A stretch of 64,000 bases of DNA, from the NCBI RefSeq assembly GCF_019396345.1, contig NZ_JAHKRM010000018.1:124001-188000 (forward strand). Reading direction: 5' to 3'. Below the pieces are notes generated by a model. The model searched no databases. It had not been told where the DNA came from and was given only the letters and a program-made list of their open reading frames with translations. This DNA comes from Nonomuraea guangzhouensis. Its GTDB lineage: Bacteria; Actinomycetota; Actinomycetes; Streptosporangiales; Streptosporangiaceae. Made by a program: the position numbers and the translations under genes. Shown here one piece after another: positions 17,652 through 22,042 of this stretch. Position 1 is the stretch's first letter; each line of letters starts with the position of its first letter.

Positions 17652-19010
17652 TCAGTCATCGCCTTGACCGCTGATAGGGATTTTTAGGACAAATCGTGCG
17701 CCTCGCTCCGAGTCCTCGATGGTCAGCGTCCCGCCGTGGCGCTCGGCGATCTCCCTGGCGATCGCCAGGCCGAGTCCCGTACCCCCCTTGTCCTTGCTAC
17801 GGGCGGCATCCAGCCGGGTGAAGCGCTGAAACACGAACTCCCGCAGGTCGGGCGGGATGCCGGGGCCGTCGTCGTTGATCTCGAGCACCGCCTCGTCGCC
17901 CTCGAGGCTGACCGAGACCGCCACGCTGGAGGTGGCGTGCCGGGCGGCGTTGTCCATGAGGTTGGTGAGCAGCCGGCCGAGTTGCAGCCGGTCCCCGCTG
18001 AGGACCACGCCCGGCTGGAGGTTCGTCACGATGCGCACCTGAAGGGCGCGGCGTCCCAGCTCGGACTCGATCAGCTGGCTCAGGTTCACACTGTCGTCCG
18101 CGCGCGCGGCACCGGAGTCGAGCCGGGCGAGCACCAGCAGGTCGACGACGATCGCCTCCAGCCGGTCGAGGCTGGCCAGCAGGGCTCGCGTCATGGCGGG
18201 CCAGTCCGCCTCGTCCGGGTGCAGCAGCGCCTCCTCCACCTGGGTGCGCATGGCGGTGATGGGACTGCGCAGGTCGTGCGAGGCGTCGGTGGCGAAGCGC
18301 CGCTGCTGCTCGACCGTCGCCTCCAGCCGGTCCAGCGTCAGGTTCGCGGCCTCGGCCAGCTTCCGGATCTCGTCGTGGTGCTCGGGCACGGGCACGCGGC
18401 GGCCCAGGTCGGTCGAGGTGATCTCGGCCAGCTCGGCGCTGATGGCGTCGACCGGGTCGAGAGTCTTGCTGACGGTACGGTAGGCTCCGAACGCCGTGGC
18501 GCCGACCAGCAGCACAGATCCGATCAGGAGCCGGGCCAGGAACGAGCGGTCGACGTACCACGGGATGACGGCATCGGCGCCGTAGACGATGTATTCGGTT
18601 CCGTCCTTGTGGATCTTTATGGCCTCGACGATCATGCACTTGCCCGGGAAGCTCGGCACGCTGCAGACGACCCGGTCCGCTCGCAGGTTCTCCCCGGGCA
18701 GGGAGAAAGTGGCCATCCGCGGTTGGCCGGCCATCCGCTCGGTGGACGTCACGACCCGGCCGGCCGGGTCGACCACCTGGATGGCGGCGACGCCGAGGTC
18801 GGGCAGCACGGGAGGGATCTGATCCAGCAGGATGTAACGGACCGCCCGTAGGTCCGCGGCCAGAATCCGGTCCGCCTGATCATCCGTGGCATGGTCGTGA
18901 GCGCTCCCCAGGATCGTCCCGCTGAAGATCGCGCACAGCAACGCCATGACGACACCGGACAGCAGCGTCATCCGAGTCCGCACGGACCAGTCGCGCCGCA
19001 AGCTCACCAT
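17652..19010 (-). CDS. Sensor histidine kinase (HAMP, HisKA, HATPase)
   Basis: The 452-residue membrane kinase has TM1 at about 13-35, an extracytoplasmic sensor of about 120 residues, TM2 near 158-180, a HAMP domain, a HisKA box with ATDASHDLRSPITAM (phospho-acceptor His), then the N box NLMDNAARHA, G1 DDGPGIP and G2 GGTGLGLAIAREIAERHGG. The sensor region contains two cysteines (VVCSVPSFPGKCMIV) that could form a redox-sensitive disulfide; that is inference. No response regulator is adjacent on either side, so its partner must be elsewhere. Confidence 0.9.
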   Translation of the reverse strand: MVSLRRDWSVRTRMTLLSGVVMALLCAIFSGTILGSAHDHATDDQADRILAADLRAVRYILLDQIPPVLPDLGVAAIQVVDPAGRVVTSTERMAGQPRMATFSLPGENLRADRVVCSVPSFPGKCMIVEAIKIHKDGTEYIVYGADAVIPWYVDRSFLARLLIGSVLLVGATAFGAYRTVSKTLDPVDAISAELAEITSTDLGRRVPVPEHHDEIRKLAEAANLTLDRLEATVEQQRRFATDASHDLRSPITAMRTQVEEALLHPDEADWPAMTRALLASLDRLEAIVVDLLVLARLDSGAARADDSVNLSQLIESELGRRALQVRIVTNLQPGVVLSGDRLQLGRLLTNLMDNAARHATSSVAVSVSLEGDEAVLEINDDGPGIPPDLREFVFQRFTRLDAARSKDKGGTGLGLAIAREIAERHGGTLTIEDSERGARFVLKIPISGQGDD

Positions 19011-19120: not shown

Positions 19121-20377
19121 TCACGGCGAGAGCCGGTGCAGGTCGCGCGGGAACAACGTCGCCTGACGGATGTTCGCCGCGCCCACCAGACGCGCCGTCC
19201 AGCGCTCGAGGCCCAGCGCGAACCCCCCGTGCGGCGGCATGCCATGCGCGAAGGCCCGCAAATACCCCTCGTACGGCCCGGCATCCTCACCCCGCGCGGC
19301 GAGCGCGTCGAGGTAGTCCTGGTGCCGGTGCAGCCGCTGACCACCCGTCACCAGCTCCAACCCCCTGAACAGCAGGTCGAAGCCGTTCGAGTAGCCCGGA
19401 CGCAGCGGGTCCGGATGCGTGTAGAACGGGCGCTTGGCCATCGGATATCCCGTGACGAACAGGAACTCCGACCCGTGCTCCCGCACCGCCCACTCCGACA
19501 GCCACCGTTCCTGCTCCGGCGACAGGTCCGGCTCGAACTCGCCCGTGAGCCGCTGCGCCTGCGTGAAGTGGATCGCCGGGATCTCGGCGGGCACCTCCGG
19601 CAGCGCCACGCCGAGCAGGTCGATCGCGGGCTGCCCCCGTACCACCTCCAGCATGCCCGCCACCGCCTCGCGCAGCACGGCCATCACGTCGCGGTGGTCG
19701 CGCACGAAGCCCAGTTCGGCGTCCAGGCTGGTGTACTGGGCCAGGTGGCGGACCGTGTCGTGCGGCTCGGCCCGGAAGACCGGGCCCACCTCGTACACCC
19801 GCTCGAACACGCCGACCATCGCCTGCTTGTAGAACTGCGGCGACTGCGCGAGGTAGGCGGGGCGCCCGAAGTAGTCGATGCCGAAGACGTTCGCGCCCGA
19901 CTCGGTGGCCGAGGCGACGATCTTGGGCGTGTGGATCTCGGTGAACCCGAGCCGGTCCAGCGCCCGGCGGAACCCGGCCACGCTCGCCGCCGAGATCTCC
20001 AGCGGTGCCCGGAGCCGCGGATGGCGCAGCGCGACCGGCGCGTGGTCGAGGATCGTGGGCAGCGCGGCGGGCACGACGGGCCGGTAGAGGTCGAACGGCG
20101 GCGCCTCAGTGGGCTCGGCCAGCACCTCGATCTCCGGCTCCGTGAGCTCGACGCCACCCGGCGCCTGCGGGTTCGCGGTCGCGACGCCCGTCACCTGGAC
20201 GACCGTCTCCTCCCCCGGGACCGCGCCGGGCGCCACCACCTGGGCGAGCCCGCTGCGGTCCCTGACGACCAGGAAGGACACGGATTTGAGCCGCCGGCGG
20301 CGATGGACCCAACCGGCGATCGTCACTCGTTGTCCGGCGTGCTCAGCGAGCTCCGCCGACAGGACACGAGAGATCAT
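19121..20377 (-). CDS. aspS: Aspartyl-tRNA synthetase, archaeal/non-discriminating type
   Basis: This 418-residue class II synthetase is much shorter than the bacterial AspRS (about 590 residues) because it lacks the GAD insertion domain. It has an OB-fold anticodon domain (about 1-100, TIAGWVHRRRRLKSVSFLVV) and a catalytic core: motif 2 FRAEPHDTVRHLAQY, FLFVTGYPMAKRPFY, and motif 3 GLERWTARLVGAANIRQATL ending FPRDLHRLSP, the archaeal signature. Such enzymes often also charge tRNA-Asn with Asp, feeding amidotransferase synthesis of Asn. ATG 20377 is chosen with GAGGAG 5 nt upstream; GTG 20380 is the alternative. A T-box leader with an Asp specifier precedes it. A standard bacterial AspRS may exist elsewhere. 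Confidence 0.9.
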   Translation of the reverse strand: MISRVLSAELAEHAGQRVTIAGWVHRRRRLKSVSFLVVRDRSGLAQVVAPGAVPGEETVVQVTGVATANPQAPGGVELTEPEIEVLAEPTEAPPFDLYRPVVPAALPTILDHAPVALRHPRLRAPLEISAASVAGFRRALDRLGFTEIHTPKIVASATESGANVFGIDYFGRPAYLAQSPQFYKQAMVGVFERVYEVGPVFRAEPHDTVRHLAQYTSLDAELGFVRDHRDVMAVLREAVAGMLEVVRGQPAIDLLGVALPEVPAEIPAIHFTQAQRLTGEFEPDLSPEQERWLSEWAVREHGSEFLFVTGYPMAKRPFYTHPDPLRPGYSNGFDLLFRGLELVTGGQRLHRHQDYLDALAARGEDAGPYEGYLRAFAHGMPPHGGFALGLERWTARLVGAANIRQATLFPRDLHRLSP

Positions 20378-20410
20378 CACAGCTCCTCACGAGGAATTGC
20401 ATGATCCCTT

Positions 20411-20622
20411 GGGAGTGCGGGGGAGAAGGGAACTCCCGGTGCCACCGCACTTTCGCCGCCCACGACGGGGCGGCCTCCACGACCCGATAACGGGGGTCAG
20501 ACCGGCGGGGCATTTCCTCCCCGCACTCGGGAGTGTCTTCGCCGAAGGGCGCGGGGCCGCCTTCACAGCTACCGGCGGCTCTCTCCGGCCCGCGCGGGCC
20601 TTCGGCTACTCGTCTCCGTCCA
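20411..20622 (-). ncRNA. T-box riboswitch leader with Asp (GAC) specifier
   Basis: On the minus strand, Stem I opens with GGACGGAGACGAGTAGCC (about 20622-20605), contains the AGAGAG...GGTAGCTGTGAAGG distal region, and presents GAAGACACTCCCGAGT (20540-20525), where GAC at 20537-20535 sits in the specifier position and is an Asp codon. CCGTTATCGGG follows, as in the Stem II region. The T-box core CGGTGGCACCGGGAG has TGGCACC at 20444-20438; the variable C would pair with the G discriminator of tRNA-Asp. A competing hairpin GTGCGG...CCGCAC spans 20450-20415 without a U-run. The Shine-Dalgarno GAGGAG can pair with TTCCTC just upstream, so control may be translational. Confidence 0.85.
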
Positions 20623-20641: not shown

Positions 20642-22042
20642 CTACTTCTTGGGCTGGCCGCCCTTCCGCTTTTCGCGGATCTTCATCGACACGTCGATCG
20701 GCGACCCGGCGAAGCCGAACTCCTCGCGGAGCCGGCGTTCGATGAACCGGCGGTAGGTGTCCTCGAGCCAACCCGAGGTGAACAGCACGAACTTGGGCGG
20801 CTCCACCGACGCCTGCGTGGCGAAGAGGATCTTCGGCTGCTTGCCGCTCCGCACCGGCGGCGGCGTCTGGTGCACCAGGTCGGTCAGGAACGCGTTGAGC
20901 CTGGACGTCGGCACCCGCGACGACCACGAGTCCAGCGCCTTCTCCAGTGCCGGGACGAGCCGGTCCATGTGGCGCCCGGTCTTGGCGGAGATGTTGACCC
21001 GCAGCGCCCACGGAGTGCGGACGAGCTGCCGGTCGATCTCCTTCTCCAGGTAGTAGCGGCGGTCCTCGTCGACCAGGTCCCACTTGTTGAACGCGACCAC
21101 CATCGCCCGGCCCGACTCGATCACCAGGCCGATGATCCGCAGGTCCTGCTCGGTGAGCACCTCGCTGGCGTCGATCAGCACGATCGCCACCTCGGAGCGT
21201 TCGAGGGCGGCCCTGGTGCGCATGGCGGCGTAGAAGTCGGCGCCCTGCAGCTCGCGGTCGCGCCGCCTGATGCCGGCGGTGTCGACGAAGCGCCAGGTCT
21301 TGCCGCCCAGCTCGATCAGCTCGTCGACCGGGTCGCGGGTGGTGCCCGCCATCGGGTCGACCAGCACCCGCTCCTCCCCCGCCAGCTTGTTGAGCAGCGA
21401 GGACTTGCCGACGTTGGGCTTGCCGAGCAGCGCCACCCGGTAGGGGCCGCGCTCCGCGTCGAACTTCAGCTCCGGCGTCTCGGGCAGCGCCTCGAGGATC
21501 ACGTCGAGCAGGTCGCCGCTGGAACGGCCGTGCAGGGCCGACACCGGCTGCGGCTCGCCGAGGCCGAGCGCCCAGAGCGAGGCGGCCTCCAGCTCCAGCT
21601 GCTGGTTGTCGACCTTGTTGGCGGCCAGGATGACCGGCTTGCCCGACTGGCGGAGGACGGAGCCGACCGTCTCGTCGGCGTCGGTCGCGCCCACGGTGGC
21701 GTCAACGACGAACACGATCACATCGGCCAGCTCGACCGCGACCCGCGCCTGGTCGGCGATGCGCAGGTTCATCCCGGTGGCGTCGGGGTCCCAGCCGCCG
21801 GTGTCGACGACCGTGAAGCGGCGCCCGCGCCAGTTGGCGTCATAGGTGACGCGGTCGCGGGTGACGCCCGGCACGTCTTCGACGACCGCCTCGCGGCGGC
21901 CGATGATGCGGTTGACCAGCGTGGACTTGCCCACGTTGGGCCGGCCGACGATGGCCACGACCGGCTGCGGGCCGCTGTCGACGACGTCGTCGGATACTTC
22001 GAGATCGCCGAGGTCAGCCTCGACCCAATCCCCCGTAGACAC
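20642..22042 (-). CDS. der: Ribosome biogenesis GTPase Der (EngA)
   Basis: The 466-residue protein has two tandem G domains and a C-terminal KH-like domain. Domain 1 shows [19 protein letters not shown] and NKVD; domain 2 shows [19 protein letters not shown] and NKWD. The basic tail ([13 protein letters not shown]) contacts rRNA in homologues. Der is essential for 50S subunit maturation. It is preceded by cmk on the same strand, the usual actinobacterial arrangement, with a 32-nt gap. The T-box leader of aspS begins about 20 nt after its stop. Confidence 0.96.

Follow-up and report, generated by a model that had tools for sequence, protein, structure and literature searches.

Why would an actinobacterium keep two aspartyl-tRNA synthetases (AspRS), and what would decide when the second one is made? 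The question is raised by a locus of Nonomuraea guangzhouensis, in a stretch of 64,000 nt that we call the window. Its reverse strand carries aspS2 (19121..20377, stop included), an archaeal-type AspRS gene that starts with ATG and lies behind a leader described in the original prediction as a T-box reading aspartate. We consider it likely that this leader is a tRNA-Asp-sensing T-box riboswitch, controlling the translation of a spare AspRS.

The product of aspS2, AspRS2, has 418 residues and the archaeal architecture expected of it. It scores 523 bits with the NCBIfam model NF003483 (aspartate--tRNA(Asn) ligase; cut-off 353) and 328 bits with TIGR00458, under the cut-off of 368.4. Its Pfam domains are an OB domain and the class II core only; the bacterial GAD insertion is absent. 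The nearest solved structure is AspRS2 of Thermus thermophilus (1n9w, 408 bits), with 3nel as runner-up (282 bits). Residues H25 and P73 align with the histidine and proline of 1n9w, in places where 3nel has tryptophan and lysine; among the 81 AspRS2 compared, H25 is conserved in 80 (tyrosine in L017) and P73 in all. We take the H and P pair in the anticodon-binding domain as the mark of non-discriminating archaeal-type AspRS, and W and K as that of discriminating ones. The enzyme was probably acquired laterally.

We searched the genome for other AspRS, an AsnRS and GatB. PF00152 is found in three genes: aspS2, a bacterial AspRS (AspRS1) and a frame of 525 amino acids read as LysRS. AspRS1, located at G000:C71 next to a frame read as HisRS, reaches 839 bits with NF001750 and has 579 residues from the chosen start. 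The same search finds no AsnRS, and one GatB is present, behind a frame read as GatA. An RF00230 search of the whole genome returns two T-boxes, at ileS and at aspS2, and none at the gene of AspRS1 (L003). Thus, aspS2 encodes a second AspRS, as had been supposed, beside a T-box-free bacterial one.

Since PF00152 reveals no AsnRS and one GatB is present, the gene content fits a non-discriminating AspRS2, which probably charges both tRNA-Asp and tRNA-Asn, the latter for GatCAB. The idea of a non-discriminating enzyme, raised from the start, therefore agrees with gene content and with H25 and P73 alike, under the meaning that we assume for these residues. Species of Thermus and Deinococcus have an AspRS2 of the same protein family (1n9w being the best match), and according to the accessible text of PMC4206432 it is there, too, a second AspRS accompanied by GatCAB; in contrast to the Nonomuraea genome, they have an AsnRS. 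The same text reports an additional AspRS with GatCAB in Actinomycetales, mostly without AsnRS, and mentions the T-box twice, in its reference list only. On these grounds AspRS2 might serve mainly for tRNA-dependent asparagine supply, making Asp-tRNA-Asn for GatCAB as proposed for Deinococcus and Thermus, with the T-box reading aspartate as a proxy. The missing AsnRS, the single GatB and the residues shared with the T. thermophilus enzyme favour such a role; the specifier codon and the natural losses described below speak against it, and we regard it as unlikely.

The leader is matched by RF00230 along the full model (positions 1 to 219) at 20631-20414 of the reverse strand, with 71.6 bits in a covariance-model scan and an E-value of 1.1e-15 for the 451 bases searched or 7.7e-15 for the whole 13.7-Mb genome. 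The Rfam gathering score for this family is 93 bits, hence a default scan of the window comes out empty and the match was obtained in a permissive one. A plain fold of the leader gives a z of -2.0. The specifier loop reads GAA-GAC-ACUCC, with the aspartate codon GAC (20535..20537) placed 3' of the conserved GAA by the model alignment. The second T-box of this genome, at ileS, supports this register and has AUC in the equivalent position (GAU-AUC-ACCCC). In the accessible part of the TBDB paper, GAC makes up 94% of aspartate specifiers, the genes not being named there (PMC7778990).

The conserved A1-bulge-A2 element that forms the antiterminator or antisequestrator of T-boxes is present in aspS2 leaders. 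In the window, the 5' strand of helix A1, GUGCGG (20445..20450), pairs with CCGCAC (20420-20415); all cells of the alignment are paired here, and two of the pairs have changed on both sides. The bulge UGGC (20441..20444) follows, and then the A2 hairpin (20421..20437) with its stem GGGAG/CUCCC and loop UUCCCUU, paired in 98.3% of cells and with three pairs changed on both sides. A tRNA-Asp gene of the genome (L126), located with a looser sequence pattern after two earlier tRNA patterns had given no match, has the anticodon GTC and ends in ...CAGGACC-G, so that its discriminator is G73. The bulge is the complement of the resulting GCCA end, as had been predicted from a G discriminator; specifier and bulge both fit one tRNA, tRNA-Asp (GUC, G73). 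Judged by its sequence, the leader is a full Asp-specific T-box, built to sense uncharged tRNA-Asp.

The arrangement is well conserved in the relatives that we compared, the best 80 of 341 from a scan of the genome collection, whose record titles name Actinomycetota. In a motif test applied in place of RF00230, supplemented by reading 37 of the 80 rows in an alignment, a leader with the GAC specifier lies directly upstream of aspS2 in 79 loci, and L076 has none. All 79 leaders read carry GAC as specifier, never a codon for asparagine, which argues against an enzyme kept mainly for asparagine supply; in the bulge, 74 of them have UGGC and five UGGU. Among 26 same-genus genomes listed, 24 have aspS2. 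An order-level sample of 200 genomes holds 60 with an archaeal-type AspRS (58 above the family cut-off), and RF00230 matches upstream on the same strand in 56 of these 60, at a gap of 32-592 nt, the two largest gaps belonging to protein matches that lack the N-terminus. The leader of G504, missed by the model, is visible by eye and brings the count to 57; RF00230 finds no T-box at AspRS2 of G539, G491 and G592, and the G539 locus was also read for motifs.

Two wider samples were searched as well. The family occurs in 11 of 396 genomes of a phylum sample (E 1e-80 or better) and in 36 of 394 of a class sample (E 1e-100 or better), with a T-box found at 14 of these 36 genes. The permissive RF00230 scan detected a T-box at three of 13 class loci, and a motif search added L149 and L150. 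The 22 class-sample genes with no T-box found come from family f9 (fifteen, five of which had no locus to examine), f8 (four), f83, f84 and f4 (one each).

A T-box inherited with the gene could also be vestigial or non-functional, a reading suggested by the score under the gathering threshold and by the decayed leader of one genome, G506. We hold it to be very improbable in view of the compensatory changes seen in A1 and A2 as well as in the loop helix described below, of a specifier fixed across several families, and of the presence of the leader on a second AspRS lineage.

How would such a leader act on aspS2? The Shine-Dalgarno sequence GAGGAG (20383..20388) is predicted to be paired inside a hairpin (20369..20409, -17.9 kcal/mol, z -3.1) that also holds the start codon. 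Over 76 leaders (four more were dropped, having no start codon by the rule used), the mean z of this hairpin is -2.5, against 0.06 for 240 coding segments. The pairing probability of the Shine-Dalgarno averages 0.66 and exceeds 0.7 in only 40 of the 76; five hairpins are weak (L048, L061, L063, L073 and L081), with z values from -0.5 to +0.2. No terminator-like site shows up in the leader in a simple pattern scan, one that requires a T-run. With a predicted hairpin over ribosome binding site and start codon and no such terminator, control is probably translational.

We set transcription attenuation aside, as the scan had shown no terminator-like site. Control at transcription could still come from Rho or from a terminator that has no U-tract: Actinobacteria can terminate without a long U-tract. 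Furthermore, a long Stem I is commoner in transcriptional T-boxes, according to the accessible part of PMC7778990. The negative terminator scan and a downstream hairpin that, in the window, encloses the Shine-Dalgarno and the start codon make this improbable, and translational control remains our preferred reading.

Translational T-boxes have precedents in the phylum. Those of Actinobacteria were reported upstream of ileS, with no classical ones, in the accessible text of Seliverstov 2005 (PMC1262725), and the aspS2 leader resembles them in its bulge, its specifier and a hairpin sequestering the Shine-Dalgarno in place of a terminator. It differs in reading aspartate instead of isoleucine and in its longer Stem I. 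In the genome of N. guangzhouensis, the ileS T-box (L002, G000:C70:65832-65670) is shorter and has the specifier AUC; its A1 3' strand, CCCUU, is itself the anti-Shine-Dalgarno, which is the known design. Such actinobacterial ileS T-boxes, acting on translation, are also said to have been treated by Sherwood in 2015.

This double use of the A1 strand is specific to ileS in the comparison of the two leaders; aspS2 has instead an additional helix between the A2 loop and downstream sequence. The leader of the window folds without a shared strand, and its relatives were folded from AAGGG onward only, a range in which a strand shared between A1 and the Shine-Dalgarno is not detectable. A simple mutual exclusion of A1/A2 and the Shine-Dalgarno hairpin was rejected for the window, where both form together in constrained folding. 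As the hairpin stays with the antisequestrator enforced, folding energies do not explain how A1 would open it. An anti-Shine-Dalgarno in the CUCCC linker was considered as well and dropped, the linker sequence being variable. One relative of family f84, L149 (G660, 1389-1440), carries the Asp T-box of aspS2 with what seems, by eye, a classical sequestrator using the A1 3' strand.

The additional helix is formed by the loop segment CCCUU (20426..20430), directly 5' of the A2 3' strand, and by AAGGG (20406..20410), whose GGG may alternatively close the base of the Shine-Dalgarno hairpin. AAGGG follows 15 nt on in each of the 79 leaders; across the relatives' loci, 1.1% of positions can form five pairs with this spacing. 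Over 46 distinct sequences, which include L149 (helix absent by eye) and L155 (helix defect), 98.3% of cells are paired, and two pairs have changed on both sides, in nine and two sequences respectively. With the partners slid by 1-3 columns, the whole structure has 42-64% of its cells paired, instead of 98.9%, and none of 500 shuffles reaches the covariation score of the structure. One change, UA to GC, appears in three separate clades as read on the tree (L038/L048, inside the Nonomuraea group; L061/L063/L065/L073; L150/L155/L087), while the program's minimum, with 47 unlabelled rows left out, is two changes.

When the leader of the window is folded without pseudoknots, the on fold is favoured over the one with CCCUU/AAGGG by 8-9 kcal/mol. 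The pairing fits an H-type pseudoknot on A2 with the A1 3' strand in its third loop. A rough A-form estimate, with the strand assignment picked to give the known deep groove, asks for about 42-44 Angstrom over 11-12 bp, against a linker of 4 nt; being too short for that span, the linker makes it unlikely that the loop helix and a complete A1 exist together.

The T-box has also been joined to a different enzyme. In a protein tree of 72 of 104 rows, with Nonomuraea thinned, L118, L119 and L162 fall outside the main lineage, in another one that lies nearer to the family f9 enzymes; their proteins are 37-39% identical to AspRS2 of the window. The leaders of these three loci, in contrast, share 78-84% identity with three Streptomycetaceae leaders from the main lineage. 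Leaders this similar on such different proteins mean that the T-box was joined to two AspRS lineages; from these comparisons, the aspS2 leader can be called a movable cassette. There is a parallel in the LysRS T-box of Bacillus and Clostridium, a single T-box that precedes the genes of two different synthetases. In Bacillus cereus, it stands before a class I LysRS of archaeal type that was acquired laterally as a second synthetase, beside an unregulated one. As described in the accessible text of PMC2916919, this T-box differs from the aspS2 leader in acting by antitermination, in responding to lysine (and asparagine) and in belonging to Firmicutes.

We then counted AspRS genes with PF00152 over 28 genomes. 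In G225, G268 and G343 (family f9) and in G220, two genes were found each, an archaeal-type AspRS and one of LysRS size; the former is thus apparently the sole AspRS, and no T-box was found at it in any of the four. All 14 census genomes with a T-box at the archaeal-type AspRS also have a bacterial-type AspRS gene (377-399 bits). The T-box apparently goes with a second rather than a sole archaeal-type AspRS, by a rule with exceptions: of the two AspRS in each of G236, G034, G059, G539 and G491, the archaeal-type one lacks a T-box.

Within the genus, aspS2 was lost by different routes in two genomes; both keep AspRS1, which makes AspRS2 dispensable there. In G548 (L113, from about 2084) the T-box and start are kept, and the in-frame AspRS2 match stops after about 92 residues. 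In G506 (L114, around 1857) a sequence read as TnpB lies inside the antisequestrator of the decayed leader, and the AspRS2 C-terminus remains further on. Neither genome shows an AsnRS, so AspRS1 must be non-discriminating in both; AspRS2 is therefore not needed for the asparagine route there, again contrary to a main role in asparagine supply.

The surroundings of aspS2 are of a housekeeping kind. The gene der, for the GTPase EngA, was identified by a protein family scan (20642..22042, same strand) and ends 10 nt before the T-box match; it stands upstream of aspS2 in 36 of 37 Nonomuraea loci, with a frame read as cmk ahead of it in most. Twenty of the 55 open reading frames of the window were scanned, and they include uvrB, CTP synthase, scpA, scpB, a pseudouridine synthase, a prephenate dehydrogenase, Mce-type proteins and transporters, as well as der; no biosynthetic cluster was found among them. 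On the other side, a histidine kinase (17652-19010) lies between aspS2 and an MFS gene, with a close copy among the 80 loci only in L075, and weak matches elsewhere in L053 and L060.

The original prediction had suggested self-resistance: AspRS2 would withstand an AspRS inhibitor made by the strain itself and be induced when AspRS1 is blocked. Synthetase duplicates related to antibiotics are known, and the idea would suit an additional enzyme, different in type, whose leader is of a charging-responsive kind. Two names met in secondary metabolism also occur near relatives, an EryCIII-like glycosyltransferase beside the Kutzneria locus L039 and a PhzC-PhzF protein near L064. Against these stand the position of the gene behind der among housekeeping genes, the lack of a cluster in the scanned frames of the window, and the occurrence of aspS2 in 24 of the 26 same-genus genomes. 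Moreover, no recurring cluster or common pathway appears among 20 proteins encoded near the gene at eleven loci from other genera (six of these proteins lack a Pfam match). With housekeeping neighbours and no shared pathway, a self-resistance role is not supported, and we judge it quite improbable.

We now propose how the riboswitch would work. The trigger would be a failure of AspRS1 to keep tRNA-Asp loaded, whether through aspartate shortage or through loss or inhibition of AspRS1. As long as A1 is open, CCCUU would pair with AAGGG and stack flush on the Shine-Dalgarno hairpin, and the H-type pseudoknot with A2 would lock the off state. Uncharged tRNA-Asp would bind the GAC specifier and the UGGC bulge and stabilise helix A1; its formation would exclude the CCCUU/AAGGG pairing, because only 4 nt join A1 to AAGGG. 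The ribosome binding site would then open and AspRS2 be made, probably charging tRNA-Asp and, for GatCAB, tRNA-Asn. The least certain step is the relay of the signal to the Shine-Dalgarno hairpin through the antisequestrator loop. The whole may, tentatively, represent a new T-box platform: an A2-loop pseudoknot, exclusive with A1 and stacked on the Shine-Dalgarno hairpin, would relay tRNA binding without a strand shared by antisequestrator and sequestrator, in a cassette that has passed between two AspRS lineages and serves to run a spare AspRS. We see this fuller proposal as possible, with the odds somewhat against it.

A T-box of Clostridium acetobutylicum (Saad 2012, in the reference list of PMC4206432) is also linked to a redundant AspRS and GatCAB; it reportedly serves tRNA-dependent amidation, with Asn/Glu specificity and action at transcription, whereas the aspS2 leader reads aspartate. 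No title or abstract opening that we found mentions an Asp-specific T-box in front of an AspRS gene of Actinobacteria, although an entry in a TBDB table is possible. The actinobacterial T-boxes of the accessible literature passages are described for ileS, and an Asp-specific one on a second AspRS goes beyond them.

As a sensor of unloaded tRNA-Asp, the leader would probably have the spare AspRS made only when normal loading fails. It thereby offers an explanation for the presence of two AspRS in these bacteria, one of them as a charging-triggered backup, and the two natural losses of aspS2 give a comparison for the backup idea in soil strains. If true, the relay through the helix between loop and downstream sequence would give T-boxes a second route to translational control.
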